From: an uncultured Prevotellaceae bacterium
GTDB taxonomy: Bacteria; Bacteroidota; Bacteroidia; Bacteroidales; Bacteroidaceae
DNA length: 33,991 nucleotides
NCBI GenBank assembly: GCA_902770195.1
Contig: CACXSA010000016.1
Span: 1 to 33,991, forward strand
Direction of reading: 5' to 3'
Part shown: piece by piece, positions 8,488-33,365 of the stretch
How the letters are laid out: each line of letters starts with the position of its first letter
Position numbering within the stretch: the first letter of the stretch is position 1
Program-made: the position numbers and the translations under genes
Notes under the pieces: model-generated
The model's database searches: none
The model's input: the letters and a program-made list of their open reading frames with translations, nothing else
What the model was told of the DNA's origin: nothing

Positions 8488-9717
8488 ATGGGAAAGTTGA
8501 CAATACAGGAAATAGCCAAGGTACTGGTTGAGAGAAGCGGACTGAGTCAGAAGGATGCCAATCGGTTTGCTTCAGAAATGTTTGCTATTATCCAGCAGCG
8601 TCTTGAAGAGGACGAACTGGTGAAAATCAAAGGTCTAGGTACTTTCAAGATTATCAATGTTGAGGCTCGCGAAAGTGTCAGTGTTCGAACGGGTGAGCGT
8701 GTCGTGATAGATAGTCATGCCAAGGTGACCTTCACTCCAGATGCGGTAATGAAAGAACTTGTCAATAAGCCCTTCTCTCAATTTGAGACCGTTGTCTTGA
8801 ACGATGGAGTAGAATTTGATGATGTGACAGAGGATAGTGATGAGGACAATGCAAAGTCTGAAGAGAAAGCTGTTGTCACGGAAGAAGAATCTTCTGCAGA
8901 GGAAGTACCCTCAGGTGAAGAGTCCATAGTCGAGGAACAATCCATCGTCATGCTTGCTGACGTAGAGCCTATATCAGAGGAGCCTGTAGTCGAGGAGCCT
9001 GTAGTCGAGGAGCCTGTAGTCGAGGAACCTGTAGTCGAGGAGCCTGTAGTCGAGGAGCCTGTAGTCGAGGAACCTGTAGCAGAGGAACCTGTAGCAGAGG
9101 AACCTGCAGTCGAGGAGCCTGAAGCAGAAGTGACAATGTCTGGGAATTTTGATGTAGAAGAGAATGCTGAAGAGTCGTTGTGGAGAAAATGGCTACTACC
9201 CGTAGTTCTCGTCTTGGTATTAATGGGACTTTCAGCATTTGGTGGCTATTATTATGCAATGTATAAGATGTCTAGTCATAAAATAAATATTAAGGAAGAA
9301 AAAAAGACAGAGAAAGTGGTTCCCCTTTCAGAAACCACCGATAGTACCGTTGTTGTGAAAGATACCGTAGCTACTAAATCGCCCGAGAATACAGAAGAAC
9401 CTGATTTGAAGACAGAGTCATCCACAGTGAAAGATGAAACGGATAATAAAAAAGTAGTGGAAGATGCAGAAGAGGTAGATCCGTATGCGGCAAAAGACGA
9501 ACGAGTAAGACTTGGTGCTTACAAAATTATAGGTACTGCCGAGGAAGTTACTGTCCTTCCTGGTCAGACTTTCTATAGTATTTGTCGTGCACATTTAGGA
9601 CCTGATATGCAATGCTATGTGGAAGTCTATAACAACCTGCCCAGGGATCCAAAAATCGAAGTAGGTCAGGTTATCAAAATTCCCAAGCTTAAAATAAAGA
9701 AAAGGCGTAAAAGGTGA
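8488..9717 (+). CDS. Membrane-anchored HU-domain protein with EEPVV repeat and LysM-like C-terminus
   Basis: 409 aa. Residues 1-95 are an HU/IHF domain (TIQEIAKVLVERSGLSQKDANRFASEMF, GLGTFKI, VTFTPDAVMKELVN). Residues 96-163 are acidic; 164-213 are ten five-residue EEPVV-type repeats. A single transmembrane helix follows at about 236-258 after WRKW. Residues 260-345 are a charged linker, and about 348-400 form a LysM-like module (VLPGQTFYSICRAHLG, VEVYNNLPRDPKIEVGQVIKIPKL), ending in a basic KIKKRRKR tail. Predicted topology is HU in the cytoplasm and the LysM-like part in the periplasm. AGGAGG lies 14 nt ahead of the ATG, rare for this phylum. A terminator follows. Confidence 0.9.
   Translation: MGKLTIQEIAKVLVERSGLSQKDANRFASEMFAIIQQRLEEDELVKIKGLGTFKIINVEARESVSVRTGERVVIDSHAKVTFTPDAVMKELVNKPFSQFETVVLNDGVEFDDVTEDSDEDNAKSEEKAVVTEEESSAEEVPSGEESIVEEQSIVMLADVEPISEEPVVEEPVVEEPVVEEPVVEEPVVEEPVVEEPVAEEPVAEEPAVEEPEAEVTMSGNFDVEENAEESLWRKWLLPVVLVLVLMGLSAFGGYYYAMYKMSSHKINIKEEKKTEKVVPLSETTDSTVVVKDTVATKSPENTEEPDLKTESSTVKDETDNKKVVEDAEEVDPYAAKDERVRLGAYKIIGTAEEVTVLPGQTFYSICRAHLGPDMQCYVEVYNNLPRDPKIEVGQVIKIPKLKIKKRRKR
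8977..9126 (+). repeat. 15-nt in-frame tandem repeat, ten units (EEPVV-type)
   Basis: Ten units of GAGGARCCTGTAGTC or close variants encode EEPVV x6, EEPVA x2, EEPAV and EEPEA. The first three and units 5-6 are identical at DNA level, so the array has expanded recently by slippage or unequal crossover. Loss or gain of a unit keeps the frame and only changes the length of the linker between the HU domain and the membrane. Confidence 0.95.
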
Positions 9718-9854: not shown

Positions 9855-10850
9855 ATGGCAGAAGCTATTGATATCCGCGAATTGAATATGCGGATAGAAC
9901 AACAAAGCGGATTCGTCACAAATCTTGTGACGGGTATGGATCGTGTAATCGTTGGTCAAAAACATCTAGTGGACTCTTTGCTGATTGGTCTGCTGAGCGA
10001 TGGTAATATCCTTTTGGAAGGTGTTCCAGGACTGGCAAAGACATTGGCTATCAAGACGCTTGCTCAACTGATTGATGCGTCATATAGTCGTATTCAGTTT
10101 ACACCAGACTTGTTACCTGCTGACGTTACAGGAACAATGATTTATTCGCAGAAAGACGAGAAGTTCCAGGTAAAGCGTGGACCTGTGTTTGCAAACTTCG
10201 TGCTTGCAGATGAAATAAACCGTGCTCCTGCGAAGGTACAGAGTGCCTTACTGGAGGCTATGCAGGAGAAACAGGTTACTATTGGAAGTGAAACTTTCAA
10301 TTTGCCAAATCCTTTTCTGGTGATGGCCACTCAGAATCCTATTGAGCAGGAAGGAACTTATCCGTTGCCAGAAGCTCAGATGGACCGTTTTATGCTGAAG
10401 GTTGTAATTGGCTACCCAACAATTGACGAAGAAAAGAAGATTATTCGCGAAAACATTGTTGGTGCATTGCCTACGGTAACTCCTGTTACAACTGCTGAGG
10501 AGATTGTCAATGCTCGTTCTGTAGTTCGGGAGGTTTATATTGATGAGAAAATTGAACAGTATATTGCCGATATTGTGTTTGCCACCCGTTTCCCTGACCG
10601 TTATGGATTAAAAGACATGAAAGACATGATTGCGTTTGGCGGTTCTCCTCGTGCTTCTATTAATCTTGCGAAGGCTGCTCGTGCCTATGCTTTCATCAAG
10701 CGCCGTGGTTATGTTGTTCCAGAAGATGTGCGTGCTATTGCTCATGATGTTCTTCGCCATCGTATCGGTTTGACTTATGAGGCTGAGGCGTCGAATGTCA
10801 CCAGTGAGGAAATTGTTTCGAAGATTATCAATAAGGTTGAGGTACCTTGA
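9855..10850 (+). CDS. moxR: MoxR-family AAA+ ATPase of the Bat operon
   Basis: 331 aa. MoxR ATPases act as chaperones that mature or regulate VWA-domain partners, and here the next genes encode such partners. Walker A is GVPGLAKT (56-63), Walker B is VLADEINRAPAKVQ (Asp119, Glu120), and sensor 1 is MATQNPIEQEGTYPLPEAQMDRFMLK. The C-terminal lid contains the GGSPRASINLAKAARAYA signature. It is the first gene after the operon promoter and terminator boundary. The 87-nt gap to the DUF58 gene is filled with inverted octamer arrays. Confidence 0.95.
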   Translation: MAEAIDIRELNMRIEQQSGFVTNLVTGMDRVIVGQKHLVDSLLIGLLSDGNILLEGVPGLAKTLAIKTLAQLIDASYSRIQFTPDLLPADVTGTMIYSQKDEKFQVKRGPVFANFVLADEINRAPAKVQSALLEAMQEKQVTIGSETFNLPNPFLVMATQNPIEQEGTYPLPEAQMDRFMLKVVIGYPTIDEEKKIIRENIVGALPTVTPVTTAEEIVNARSVVREVYIDEKIEQYIADIVFATRFPDRYGLKDMKDMIAFGGSPRASINLAKAARAYAFIKRRGYVVPEDVRAIAHDVLRHRIGLTYEAEASNVTSEEIVSKIINKVEVP

Positions 10851-10937
10851 TTTGACGATTGGATGATTTTACTATTTGACAATTGCTGCCGCAATAAATA
10901 GTCAAATGGTGAAATAGTGAAATAGTAAAATAGTAAG
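10851..10937. repeat. Head-to-head octamer arrays between moxR and the DUF58 gene
   Basis: The left half, read on the minus strand, is CAATTGT-CAAATAGT-AAAATCAT-CCAATCGT-CAAA; the right half on the plus strand is AAATAGT-CAAATGGT-GAAATAGT-GAAATAGT-AAAATAGT-AAG, ending at the DUF58 ATG. The halves meet at a small hairpin ATTGC-TGCC-GCAAT (10882-10895) flanked by ATTTGAC (10874-10880) and GTCAAAT (10901-10907). The array fills the whole gap: it starts right after the moxR stop. Same octamer family as at 31765-32199. Confidence 0.8.
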
Positions 10938-28415: not shown

Positions 28416-28427
28416 TCAATAAATAAT

Positions 28428-28466
28428 AAAATAGTCAAATAGTAAATTGTCAAATTGTCAAATAAT
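28428..28466 (+). repeat. One-sided octamer array before the response regulator
   Basis: Units AAAATAGT (28428-28435), CAAATAGT (28436-28443), AAATTGT (28444-28450), CAAATTGT (28451-28458) and CAAATAAT (28459-28466), on the plus strand. The same octamers flank the four-helix gene and the DUF58 gene. No inverted arm is seen on the left; the array fills most of the 64-nt gap between kinase and regulator. Confidence 0.8.
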
Positions 28467-28479
28467 AAATTTTAAGGTT

Positions 28480-29259: not shown

Positions 29260-31764
29260 ATGAATATTTCGTATAAATGGTTAAAAGAGTACGTTGATTT
29301 CGACCTCACCCCTCAACAGGTGTGCGATGCCCTGACATCCACAGGTCTTGAAGTCGATGCACTCGAAGAAGTTCAGAGTATTAAAGGTGGTCTGAAAGGA
29401 CTTTATGTAGGTAAGGTGCTGACATGCGAGATGCACCCCGATTCCGACCACCTGCATGTCACCACCGTTGATTTGGGCAAAGGTGAGCCCCAGCAGATAG
29501 TCTGTGGCGCTCCCAATGTAGCCGCAGGTCAGAAGGTCATCGTGGCTGATCTGGGTTGTGTGCTCTATGATGGCGACAAGGAGTTTGTCATCAAGAAGTC
29601 TAAGCTGCGTGGTGTCGAGTCGTTGGGCATGATTTGTGCCGAGGATGAGATAGGTATTGGCAACGACCACTCCGGCATCATCGTATTACCTGAGGATGCT
29701 GTAGTAGGAACCCCCGCCGCTGAGTATTACCACTTGGAGAGCGACTGGCTCATCGAGATTGATATCACTGCCAACCGTGCCGACGCCCTCTCACATTGGG
29801 GTGTGGCTCGCGACCTGTATGCGTGGCTGAAGCAGAATGGATACAAGACGGCTACCCACAAACCTGTGGTCGAGGATTTTGTTATCGACAATAACTCTCT
29901 CCCCATCGACGTGGAGATCCAGAACACCGAGGCCTGCAAGCGCTATGCCTGTGTGAGCATCACCGATTGCGAGGTGAAGGAGTCGCCCGACTGGTTGAAG
30001 AACAAGCTGACCACCATAGGTCTGCGTCCTATCAACAACATCGTCGATATCACCAACTATGTCATGATGGCCCTGGGTCAGCCCCTCCATTGCTTCGATG
30101 CCGATATGGTGAAAGGTCATAAGATTGTAGTGAAGACGATGCCCGATGGCACACCCTTCCAGACTCTCGATGGGGTAGAGCATAAGCTCTCCGATCGCGA
30201 CCTGGCTATCTGCAATGCCGAAGATCCCATGTGTATCGCCGGTGTGTTTGGCGGAAAGGGTAGTGGAACCTACGAGACCACGAAGAATGTCGTGCTGGAG
30301 TCTGCTTACTTCCATCCCACATGGATTCGTAAGTCAGCCCGTCGTCACGGACTCTCTACCGATGCCTCGTTCCGCTTCGAGCGCGGCATCGACCCAAACG
30401 GCACCATCGAGGCCCTGAAATATGCCGCCCAGCTTTGTAAGGAGTTGGCAGGCGGTAAGGTGTCTATGGACATCAAGGACGTCTATCCCGAGAAGATGCA
30501 GAATGCCGTCGTTGACCTCCAGTACAGCTATGTCCACTCCCTCGTGGGAAAAGACATCCCCGTGGAGACCATCAAGAACATCTGCGCCTCCCTGGAGATG
30601 AAGGTGCTCAGCGAGAGTGCCGAGGGCTTGAAACTCGAAATCCCTGCCTATCGTGTGGATGTGCAGCGCCCCTGCGACGTTGTAGAAGACATCCTTCGCA
30701 TCTATGGCTATAACAATGTGGAGATCCCCACCCAGCTTAAGTCCAGCCTCGTCATCAAGGGCGAAGAAGACCAGAAGCACAAGTTGGCCAACCTGGTCAG
30801 CGAGCAGCTGGTAGGTGCCGGCTTCAACGAGATTCTAAATAACTCGTTAAGCAAGTCGTCGTACTACGACGACATACAGGGCAAGACACTGGTTCACATC
30901 ATGAACCCGCTCAGCAGCGACCTCAACGTGATGCGTGGCACCCTCTTGTATGGTGGCTTGGAGAGCATCGAGCACAATGCCAAGCGTAAGAATGGCAATT
31001 GCCGCTTCTTCGAGTTTGGCAACGTGTACAAAAGGACAATAACCAATAACCAATATCCAGATAACCGTGATACAGCGGCTGAGGATGAGGCTATGAAAAA
31101 AGGTAATTGGTTATTGTTTAATGGTTATTGTGAAGAGAACCATCTGGGACTCTGGCTCACCGGTAAGCGCGTGGAAGGCTCGTGGGCTCATCCCGACGAG
31201 AATACTTCATTTGCTGAACTGGATGCCTTCGTTGATAATATCCTCGCCCGCATTGGTGTACAACCCGGCATGATTGTCCGTAAGAAGTCCGACAATGCCG
31301 TCTTCTCCGCAGGTCTCACCATCGAGAACCGTGGAGGTAAGAAACTCGTTGAGCTGGGTGTCATCACCAAGAAGCTGCAACGTCAGTTCGACATCGACAC
31401 CCCCGTCTATTATGCCGAGCTCAACTGGACAGCCCTCATGAAGGTTATCCGCAAGCAGAAAGTGGAGTTCACCGACATACCTAAGTTCCCCTCCGTCAGC
31501 CGCGACCTCGCCCTGCTCATCGACAAGAGCGTAGAGTTCCAGCAGATAGAGGACATCGCCCGTCAGACGGAGAAGAAGTTCCTGAAGAAGGTCGAACTCT
31601 TCGACGTCTATGAAGGCGACAAGCTCCCTGCTGGCAAGAAGTCGTATGCCGTCAACTTCATCCTTCAGGATGCCGAGAAGACGATGGGCGACAAGCAGAT
31701 TGAAGCCATCATGCAGAAACTCATCGCTCAGCTGACCGCCAAACTTGGCGCTCAGCTTCGTTGA
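29260..31764 (+). CDS. pheT: Phenylalanyl-tRNA synthetase beta subunit
   Basis: 834 aa; works as an alpha2-beta2 enzyme charging tRNA-Phe. Domains: EMAP-type tRNA-binding OB fold (about 40-150, GLYVGKVLTCEMHPDSDHLHVTTVDLG, VCGAPNV), the B3/B4 editing domain (about 205-375, NIVDITNYVMMALGQPLHCFDAD), B5 (about 400-480), the catalytic-like core (GNVYKR..., 540-700), and the FDX-ACB anticodon-binding domain (about 740-834, KFPSVSRDLALLID). pheS is not adjacent. Residues 592-625 are an extra segment coded by inverted heptamer repeats (see separate entry). Confidence 0.95.
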   Translation: MNISYKWLKEYVDFDLTPQQVCDALTSTGLEVDALEEVQSIKGGLKGLYVGKVLTCEMHPDSDHLHVTTVDLGKGEPQQIVCGAPNVAAGQKVIVADLGCVLYDGDKEFVIKKSKLRGVESLGMICAEDEIGIGNDHSGIIVLPEDAVVGTPAAEYYHLESDWLIEIDITANRADALSHWGVARDLYAWLKQNGYKTATHKPVVEDFVIDNNSLPIDVEIQNTEACKRYACVSITDCEVKESPDWLKNKLTTIGLRPINNIVDITNYVMMALGQPLHCFDADMVKGHKIVVKTMPDGTPFQTLDGVEHKLSDRDLAICNAEDPMCIAGVFGGKGSGTYETTKNVVLESAYFHPTWIRKSARRHGLSTDASFRFERGIDPNGTIEALKYAAQLCKELAGGKVSMDIKDVYPEKMQNAVVDLQYSYVHSLVGKDIPVETIKNICASLEMKVLSESAEGLKLEIPAYRVDVQRPCDVVEDILRIYGYNNVEIPTQLKSSLVIKGEEDQKHKLANLVSEQLVGAGFNEILNNSLSKSSYYDDIQGKTLVHIMNPLSSDLNVMRGTLLYGGLESIEHNAKRKNGNCRFFEFGNVYKRTITNNQYPDNRDTAAEDEAMKKGNWLLFNGYCEENHLGLWLTGKRVEGSWAHPDENTSFAELDAFVDNILARIGVQPGMIVRKKSDNAVFSAGLTIENRGGKKLVELGVITKKLQRQFDIDTPVYYAELNWTALMKVIRKQKVEFTDIPKFPSVSRDLALLIDKSVEFQQIEDIARQTEKKFLKKVELFDVYEGDKLPAGKKSYAVNFILQDAEKTMGDKQIEAIMQKLIAQLTAKLGAQLR
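31033..31132. repeat. Inverted heptamer (CAATAAC) arrays inside pheT, in frame
   Basis: Left: CAATAAC-CAATAAC-CAATATC-CAGATAAC at about 31037-31060. Right, on the minus strand: CAATAAC-CATTAAA-CAATAAC-CAATTAC at about 31102-31131. The core of about 40 nt between them codes a Glu/Asp/Ala-rich stretch (TAAEDEAMKKG). The segment codes about 33 residues inserted between FEFGNVYK and ENHLGLWLTGK; other Bacteroidales PheT proteins, as I recall them, have a loop of about 20 residues here. The insert keeps the frame and has no stop codon. Confidence 0.75.
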
Positions 31765-31800
31765 ATTTGACAATTTGACCATTTACTATTGGACCATTGG
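31765..31800 (-). repeat. Left octamer array of the four-helix gene cassette
   Basis: On the minus strand it reads CCAATGGT-CCAATAGT-AAATGGT-CAAATTGT-CAAAT. It starts right after the pheT stop and ends 1 nt before the ATG at 31802. The opposite orientation of the same octamers follows the gene. Confidence 0.8.
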
Positions 31801-31801
31801 T

Positions 31802-32167
31802 ATGACAGAGCTCGAATTAAAGGAAAGATTTAAACTTTTTTCCATTCGCATTGTCAAGATGGTTGATAGTATGCCAGATACAATTTCTGGGAAAGCGATA
31901 GGTTCTCAAGTGGTCAGGTCTGGGACTTCACCTGCAGCCAATTATCGGGCCGCATGTTTAGGAAAATCTGAAAAAGATTTCTTGAATAAATTGAAGATGG
32001 TGGAGGAAGAACTCGATGAAACAAATCATTGGATGGAGATTATCATGGAGACAGGTTTGCTGCCACGAAAAAGGGTAGAACCGTTACATGATGAGTGTGT
32101 CGAGTTGTTGAGGATAATTGTTAGTTCAAAAGTGAGTACACGTAAACACTTAGAAAGTAATAAATAG
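31802..32167 (+). CDS. Four-helix-bundle protein (23S intervening-sequence protein family)
   Basis: 121 aa, helical throughout. The family signature is clear: LKERFKLFSIRIVKMVDSMPDT, AIGSQVVRSGTSPAANYRAACLGKSEKDFLNKLKMVEEELDETNHWMEII and a final helix. These proteins are encoded in intervening sequences of 23S rRNA in Leptospira and Coxiella and as single genes in Bacteroidota; the diversity-generating retroelement protein Avd has a similar fold. The role is unknown. The ATG at 31802 is 1 nt from the left octamer array, and the TAG stop is inside the first octamer of the right array. A longer frame from 31745 overlaps pheT and is unlikely. Confidence 0.9.
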   Translation: MTELELKERFKLFSIRIVKMVDSMPDTISGKAIGSQVVRSGTSPAANYRAACLGKSEKDFLNKLKMVEEELDETNHWMEIIMETGLLPRKRVEPLHDECVELLRIIVSSKVSTRKHLESNK

Positions 32168-32199
32168 TAAAATAGTAAAATTGTAAAATTGTAAAATGT
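32162..32199 (+). repeat. Right octamer array of the four-helix gene cassette
   Basis: AAATAGT (32162-32168), AAAATAGT (32169-32176), AAAATTGT (32177-32184), AAAATTGT (32185-32192) and AAAATGT (32193-32199), followed by AAG and the yebC-like ATG at 32203. The first unit supplies the TAG stop of the four-helix gene, and the array is the only leader in front of the yebC-like gene. Confidence 0.9.
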
Positions 32200-32202
32200 A
32201 AG

Positions 32203-32934
32203 ATGGGAAGAGCATTTGAATATCGCAAAGCTGCGAAATTGAAGAGATGGGGCCACATGGCCAAGACATTCACCAAGATTGGCAAGCAGATTGCCATTGC
32301 CGTGAAGGCAGGCGGTCCGGAGCCCGACATGAACCCTGCACTGCGTGCTATCATCGCCAATGCCAAGCGTGAGAACATGCCGAAGGATAACATCGAGCGT
32401 GCCATCAAGAACGCGATGGGTAAAGACCAGAGCGACTACAAGGAAGTAACTTACGAGGGATATGGTCCTCACGGAGTAGCCATCTTCGTTGACACCCTGA
32501 CAGACAACACCACACGTACTGTAGGCGACGTCCGTTCCGTGTTCAACAAGTTCAATGGTAACCTGGGCACTCAGGGCTCACTGTCGTTCCTGTTCGATCA
32601 CAAGTGTGTGTTCACCTTTAAGAAGAAGGACGGCCTCGATATGGACGAGATGATTCTCGACCTCATCGACTATGGTGTAGAGGACGAGTTCGACGAGGAC
32701 GAGGAAGAGAACAGCATCACCATCTATGGAGACCCCTCCAGCTTCGGAGCTATCCAGAAGCACCTGGAGGAGAACGGCTTCGAGGTGACCGGTGCCGAGT
32801 TCACTCGCATCCCCAACGACCTCAAGGACGTTACTCCCGAGGAGCGCGAGACCATCGATAAGATGATTGAGAGACTCGAGGACTTCGACGACGTACAGAC
32901 TGTCTATACGAACATGAAGCCCGAGGGCATGTAA
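32203..32934 (+). CDS. YebC/PmpR/TACO1-family protein
   Basis: 243 aa, a full-length member: MGRAFEYRKAAKLKRWGHMAKTF, NPALRAIIANAKRENMPKDNIERAIKNA, EVTYEGYGPHGVAIFVDTLTDN, TVGDVRSVFNKFNGNLGTQGSLSFLFD and the acidic C-terminus with ERLEDFDDVQTVYTNM. The family was called a transcriptional regulator, but TACO1 and bacterial relatives are now linked to translation of proline-rich stretches; the role here is not shown. The acidic run EDEFDEDEEEN is typical. The gene follows the four-helix cassette. Confidence 0.95.
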   Translation: MGRAFEYRKAAKLKRWGHMAKTFTKIGKQIAIAVKAGGPEPDMNPALRAIIANAKRENMPKDNIERAIKNAMGKDQSDYKEVTYEGYGPHGVAIFVDTLTDNTTRTVGDVRSVFNKFNGNLGTQGSLSFLFDHKCVFTFKKKDGLDMDEMILDLIDYGVEDEFDEDEEENSITIYGDPSSFGAIQKHLEENGFEVTGAEFTRIPNDLKDVTPEERETIDKMIERLEDFDDVQTVYTNMKPEGM

Positions 32935-32938
32935 TGGT

Positions 32939-32982
32939 GGTTAATGGTTAACGGTTAATGGTTAACGGTTAATCATTAACGG
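32939..32982. repeat. GGTTAAY heptamer array at the convergent gene end
   Basis: Five plus-strand heptamers: GGTTAAT (32939-32945), GGTTAAC (32946-32952), GGTTAAT (32953-32959), GGTTAAC (32960-32966), GGTTAAT (32967-32973), then one inverted copy CATTAACGG (32974-32982). The array follows the yebC-like stop by 4 nt, and the inverted unit contains the stop codon of the minus-strand lipoprotein (32976-32978). It may also serve as the boundary between the convergent genes; no ordinary terminator is present. Confidence 0.85.
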
Positions 32983-33365
32983 TAGTCAGATTGATGGAAC
33001 GTGGCATCTAACAGCTGCGTTCCTTTTTTCTTGCCCGAATGATACACATAGCGGAAGCTATAGCCCGCCTCCTTATACAGTCGCAGGTGGGCACTGTTCT
33101 TAATCTCCTGCAGTAGCAAGTCGCGCGAATGGGCACCCTCCACCACTGCCGAGTCGTCCAGCTGTCCCGTCAGCGTATAGGCATACGTAATGGTGTGCGT
33201 CGCCTTGTCAAACGTCATGCTGTCCATCACCACATCCTTAGCCACAGGAGTAGGGCAGTGCTTCTCCGTATATTCCCTTGCCTCCCTCTCACAACGCTCT
33301 TCCAGCGACTCCTGACAACCCACTGCCATCAGAGCCGCTCCTATAAAAAGTACTATCTTCTTCAT
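32976..33365 (-). CDS. Small lipoprotein of unknown function
   Basis: 129 aa. A lipoprotein signal peptide MKKIVLFIGAALMAVGC has a lipobox AVGC with the lipidated Cys at residue 17; the start at 33365 is used because it gives the normal signal, though MRQRK at 33380 is possible. The mature part has two more cysteines (RCEREAREYTEKHC), then a pattern common to Bacteroidales lipoproteins of unknown role: DSMTFDKATHTITYAYTLTGQLDD, LREIKNSAHLRLYKEAG-like and YRYVYHSGKKKGTQLLDATF. It is divergent from a C10 protease gene; an inhibitor role is possible but not shown. Confidence 0.8.
   Translation of the reverse strand: MKKIVLFIGAALMAVGCQESLEERCEREAREYTEKHCPTPVAKDVVMDSMTFDKATHTITYAYTLTGQLDDSAVVEGAHSRDLLLQEIKNSAHLRLYKEAGYSFRYVYHSGKKKGTQLLDATFHQSDYR

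Follow-up and report, generated by a model that had tools for sequence, protein, structure and literature searches.

The window, the 33,991-nucleotide stretch of DNA analysed here, makes up contig C16 in a draft genome of 3.01 Mb (86.6% complete). Its interval 31765-32201 is probably a member of a widespread family of short insertional elements, about 400-500 nt in size, that combine a PF05635 gene with inverted tandem-repeat ends. We propose that such an element would consist of a PF05635 gene, usually in sense within an operon gap, between ends made of inverted short tandem arrays, and that the repeat unit would be particular to each element, matched on both sides, and would travel together with the protein subfamily. 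It would spread as a hitchhiker, comparable to the intervening sequences (IVS) of 23S rRNA; its gene would be expressed by read-through of the host operon, its Avd-like protein would probably bind the snap-back ends of its own element, whether as DNA or as RNA, and copying or insertion would rely on other enzymes.

At the window locus, the stop codon of pheT (29260..31764, plus strand; TIGR00472) occupies 31762-31764, and directly after it, at 31765, a repeat reading places a left array of ATTTGAC-type units (31765..31800; AAATNGT on the minus strand), which ends at 31800 before the ATG at 31802 of a PF05635/TIGR02436 four-helix bundle gene (31802..32167, plus strand, 121 aa) identified by profile matches, predicted structure and fold search. 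The TAG stop of this gene (32165-32167) lies inside the first AAATAGT unit of a plus-strand right array of AAATNGTA units (32162..32201), and yebC, a YebC/PmpR family gene recognised by profile matches, begins at 32203 (32203..32934, plus strand); pheT and yebC are neighbours from the host operon and stand outside the element. The initial annotation had the arrays running from the pheT stop to the ATG and from the TAG to the next start, which is exact in its coordinates, and its view that they share one octamer family in opposite orientation was confirmed by inverted-pair comparison, the left and right arms being mutually inverted in three pairs of the repeat comparison. Within the subfamily of the window gene (31765-31800 and 32162-32201, with L106-L111), the eighth base of the unit appears by eye to be often C or G on the left and A on the right, so that the arms of this subfamily would be imperfect inverted copies. 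Rfam gave no match in 31000-33000, and across 31600-32300 a weak consensus scan found no promoter-like site on the gene's strand and two on the minus strand, with 1.6 expected, and a terminator scan found none. Other repeats occur in the window: an octamer array of AAATAGTC type in a single orientation just 5' of a response-regulator-like gene (28418-28470), a heptamer array (GGTTAAC/GGTTAAT) directly 3' of yebC (32938-32983), and a 15-bp minisatellite of about 10 copies within an open reading frame, where it encodes repeated EPVVE (8965-9121).

The arrays enclose a single gene, whose only Pfam match is to PF05635 (53.2 bits, cut-off 33.8), with none to a transposase family, and which matches TIGR02436 at 79 bits (cut-off 24). 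Its product is predicted as a confident four-helix bundle (four helices, pLDDT 94.9), for which Foldseek returned 2rld and 2gsc as the nearest structures (TM-score by query 0.79-0.84 for 2rld). A similarity in fold to Avd, raised by the initial annotation, is supported by the match to Avd 4dwl (TM-score by query 0.70, E 0.012), and a diversity-generating retroelement (DGR) reverse-transcriptase complex, 8ub7, was matched at 0.74, with sequence identities to the Avd and DGR chains of 13-18%. Homologues of the window gene found in named records all come from metagenome-assembled genomes (MAGs), whose labels are Prevotella, Bacteroidales or another Bacteroidia-type group. We infer that the PF05635 protein is a nucleic-acid-binding partner of the ends of its own element.

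Inverted arrays framing PF05635 genes are confirmed as a real and general feature, and the weight for this lies in the family-wide enrichment; the window locus taken alone is modest (inverted-flank score 21, with a score of at least 20 in 21 of 618 control genes). The score compares, by local similarity, the roughly 150 nt that precede a gene with the roughly 150 nt that follow it, the latter in reverse complement; its threshold of 18 was reached at 53 of 59 PF05635 loci, with 6 below it, versus 32 of 618 control genes from the same regions. These controls are mechanical open reading frames, and 10 of their 32 high scorers have a PF05635 gene no more than 200 nt away; among controls at least 300 nt from any such gene, 20 of 508 reach 18. 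Dinucleotide-shuffled flank pairs did so in 22 of 1180 cases, the same 59 loci in direct orientation in 6, and left and right flanks taken from different loci in 47 of 465 pairings; left and right arms match their own partner far better than the arms of other loci. Inverted flanks were found at 35 of 37 loci of the same genus, 5 of 8 from other families of the order and 13 of 14 from named MAGs. The set comprises 45 loci from the search of relatives (own genome included), taken from 67 matches over the cut-off, and 14 from named MAGs, taken from 16, the truncated L118 and L119 being left out. All five PF05635 genes found in the window's draft genome reach the threshold, and their units all differ: GTGAATA/GTGAACA; ATTGAACA; one resembling AGTGAAA, with extra sequence; GTAATGA/GTAATTA; and AAATNGT. 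Some arms, such as those of L067, L075 and L091, run past the tandem array into inner inverted sequence.

Beyond these relatives, 33 further loci of the phylum (30 for the top-scoring matches of a phylum sample and 3 from the relatives search) gave 22 inverted and 3 direct, with 11 of the 33 below threshold and 68 of 1056 cross-locus pairings above it. The plasmid sample, of which 12 of 39 records were used, contributed nine loci from Cyanobacteriota and one each from Gemmatimonadota, Pseudomonadota and Bacteroidota; nine of the 12 were inverted (cross-locus, 13 of 132), and two of the three misses (L318, L320) carry direct repeats instead. The expectation that other four-helix genes, scored against controls, would have flanking inverted arrays was thus borne out (53/59, 22/33 and 9/12). 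PF13366 (GxxExxY) genes were considered as a second cargo with a specifically inverted frame; 27 of 36 matches entered the flank test (L168 having almost no downstream sequence), and although these genes are framed by repeats, direct orientation (15/27) is nearly as frequent as inverted (17/27; cross-locus 38/702), and they are set aside as a lead only.

The repeat units follow the protein. Across 75 of the 92 loci, those above the arm threshold, we compared 2693 pairs without a detectable shared neighbour, taken as different junctions, and called arms alike at a score of at least 16 in the same orientation relative to the gene. At a protein similarity of at least 0.5, 75 of 166 pairs had like arms, as did 26 of 390 at 0.35-0.5 and 83 of 2137 below 0.35, with flipped arms alike in 8 of the 166 most similar pairs; a Mantel test of arm against protein similarity gave p 0.001. 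The association held without the window subfamily (33/113 versus 44/1310, p 0.001), where flipped arms were also weakly correlated (rho 0.105, p 0.01). The window subfamily, whose arms are AAATNGT-like or related, occupies four kinds of junction: pheT-yebC (L105-L109 and L118, with L119 cut by a contig end), a KDG-type kinase-KDPG aldolase junction (L110, with L111, L113, L114 and L117), methylmalonyl-CoA epimerase-mmdA (L112, unit AAATCGA), and a sugar kinase-hexonate epimerase junction (L116, with L115), the two kinases being distant relatives (about 31% identical). As judged from sequence, the arms are shown to travel with the gene, the repeat unit being matched left and right and following the protein subfamily across junctions, and template switching or gene conversion between the arms may maintain the match.

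Sites are polymorphic for the element at two junctions. Of the 80 genomes sampled from the genus, 72 yielded yebC, 70 junction regions were obtained and 68 were readable as pheT-yebC (left out of the count were L213, at a contig end, L217, with another neighbour, G033 and G068); the PF05635 gene is present at 1 of these 68, the filled one being that of the window's genome. The comparison of relatives proposed by the initial annotation therefore finds that the gene is not at this place in all of them. The gap in G007 (L125, G007:C5; 487 nt) holds a broken-looking PF13366 (PDDEXK_3) gene with inverted CAGATTAC-type arrays on either side, which fits exchange and is no proof of it, and that of G083 (502 nt) has array-like borders and a longest listed open frame of 58 aa. 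The remaining gaps are at most 211 nt where measured, several holding gene-less arrays of other units, and tblastn of PF05635 and PF13366 proteins against these junctions found no further copy or relic; a 3' remnant spotted by eye in L181 is only a suspicion because that search found no relic there. Two further genomes (G040 and G051; L146 and L149) have another hairpin-like stretch at the same junction, GGGTCTGAACAAGCGC ... CGCTTGTTCAGACCCC-like. At fadB-fadA in another genus, two of eight genomes are filled, one of them (G191) with its PF05635 match interrupted by a stop codon, and six are empty, their flanking alignments lying 11-68 nt apart. Filled and empty sites are too divergent here to place the ends to the base, and a target duplication was not observed. 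The proposal of a possible mobile cassette stands in part: gene and arrays behave as one insertable unit (1/68, with other loci framed likewise), no movement was observed, and exchange by recombination between arrays is conjectural.

Arrays also occur apart from the gene. The octamer pattern occurs 42 times in the window's genome and the backward control pattern once; this octamer lacks specificity for the PF05635 gene and is one of many units used by such elements. Between MoxR-type and DUF58 genes of the window, pattern search and folding revealed a gene-less inverted octamer array pair (about 10849-10937, plus strand) that folds as a single hairpin (z -4.2) and has the same layout as the framed PF05635 locus, minus the gene. 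Elsewhere in the same search, L025 (G000:C71, about 873-985) has back-to-back inverted octamer arrays with no PF05635 gene, apparently inside a long open frame or on its margin. In a comparison with 30 genomes, the gene-less element from the pheT-yebC junction of G015 was matched in 9, among them G015 itself (23 matches), G004 (28) and G008 (14), and not at all in the window's genome. In G004 many matches are facing pairs 100-200 nt apart, and one gene-less copy ends in GTTAAAGACAATAG and GCATTTGTCTTTAAC, sequences that closely resemble the ends of a G004 PF05635 element; a G007 match proved to be the downstream end of such an element. Of the 18 copies read from G015, 14 are flanked on either side by sense open frames, one is antisense and three could be assigned to neither; this count is soft, since long antisense frames are present at some copies as well. 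The dispersal of gene-less copies that share similar ends is shown for some genomes.

PF05635 genes tend to lie in sense with their surroundings. Both neighbours are co-directional with the gene at 49 of 58 loci versus 259 of 524 control genes, and both are opposite at 0 of 58 versus 58 of 524. The sense position is a strong tendency and no rule, because on one plasmid (L317) a PF05635-family gene lies antisense between two ribonucleotide reductase genes. On cyanobacterial plasmids, such genes are found inside CRISPR-cas operons, in the order cas6-gene-cas4 (L318, L321) and within a cas10-gene-cmr3-type order (L328).

Several other explanations of these arrangements have to be weighed. The modest score of the window locus and the controls that score about as high would suit chance similarity between low-complexity, A+T-rich flanks, but this is scarcely credible, being contradicted by the family-wide enrichment and by the specificity of the match for orientation and for locus. 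A more serious, still unlikely, explanation takes the arrays for general intergenic hairpins into whose tips the PF05635 gene inserts, so that the array would be a target and not the end of an element. Gene-less arrays are indeed frequent, two of the six empty fadB-fadA junctions (G117, G266) contain small gene-less inverted stretches, and IVS elements have replaced helix tips in 23S rRNA (PMC4990558); however, the likeness of arms follows the protein subfamily from junction to junction and holds for a single orientation, and the two fadB-fadA stretches differ in sequence from the filled sites.

It is improbable that these are old operon genes lost many times, with the arrays forming an RNA stem that insulates the gene or excises it from the transcript. 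The strong sense bias, the good folding of gene-less arrays and the excision of related IVS by RNase III (PMC4990558) agree with such a history, but a wobble test of arm mismatches on the transcribed strand detected no bias (73 versus 98, p 0.066), leaving selection on an RNA stem unsupported by wobble asymmetry, the arms of the window element are unpaired in the predicted minimum-energy RNA structure (whole stretch, z -3.77), and one subfamily occurs at four kinds of junction. We likewise doubt that the gene is passive cargo of a MITE-like system mobilised in trans by a Y1 (RAYT-type) transposase. Y1_Tnp (PF01797) matches are present in 9 of 10 genomes with these elements and the gene-less copies are MITE-like, but G008 (90% complete) has 11 PF05635 matches and no Y1_Tnp match, by which the Y1 transposase was rejected as a constant partner, and many of the Y1 genes (18 loci, L279-L296) have inverted palindromic flanks of their own, non-tandem and of another kind. 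Reverse transcriptase (PF00078) was rejected in the same role, being present in only 4 of the 10 genomes, and gave no match in the window's draft genome. No enzyme is consistently linked to PF05635 elements.

The insertional element that we favour resembles several known systems. The IVS of 23S rRNA have been described as parasitic elements that in some bacteria carry this protein's gene, and the Coxiella IVS, of 428 nt, is bordered by complementary sequences (PMC4990558); IVS with an S23p/IVP gene and our elements are alike in protein family, size, complementary borders and sporadic distribution (PMC4990558). Unlike them, the window element lies between the protein genes pheT and yebC with no Rfam match, and borders of its type are short tandem arrays that differ in each element. 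REP/RAYT systems and MITEs are similar at the level of the family, with a gene framed by inverted repeats and dispersed gene-less copies with similar ends, but here the framed gene is PF05635 and no transposase, and Y1 genes have other, non-tandem palindromes. BrickBuilt, a Porphyromonas gingivalis MITE that contains a minisatellite, is likewise an intergenic repeat element of Bacteroidales in which tandem repeats occur together with inverted ends, whereas its 23-nt tandem repeat is internal and its abstract mentions no PF05635 gene (PMC4596501). With the Avd of DGRs the likeness is one of fold (4dwl and 8ub7), in contrast to the low sequence identity and the lack of a reverse transcriptase match in the window's draft genome. 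STRR sequences are heptamers. They are described from filamentous cyanobacteria as hairpin-forming short tandem repeats (PMC2670836). We suggest a link to the arms of PF05635 elements on cyanobacterial plasmids, which look similar in outline.

Among the matches listed in a literature search by title and start of abstract, with most subscription journals and bioRxiv outside its coverage, none joins PF05635 genes to inverted short-repeat arrays, and there is a real chance that the PF05635-framed elements of operon gaps are a class of their own. More broadly, it is possible, if somewhat short of likely, that they represent an unrecognised mobile class in at least Bacteroidota and Cyanobacteria, with element-specific, co-inherited inverted arrays that are perhaps recognised by the protein, with sense sites in operon gaps, with gene-less derivatives that make up much short tandem repeat DNA in these genomes, and with the 23S rRNA IVS as its branch resident in rRNA. 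The matched inverted arrays give PF05635 genes a testable role, and they connect a parasite of rRNA with an element family of operon gaps that is a possible source of the short tandem repeats scattered through such genomes. The operon neighbours of a PF05635 gene, cas genes for example, may be its landing sites and no evidence of its function.
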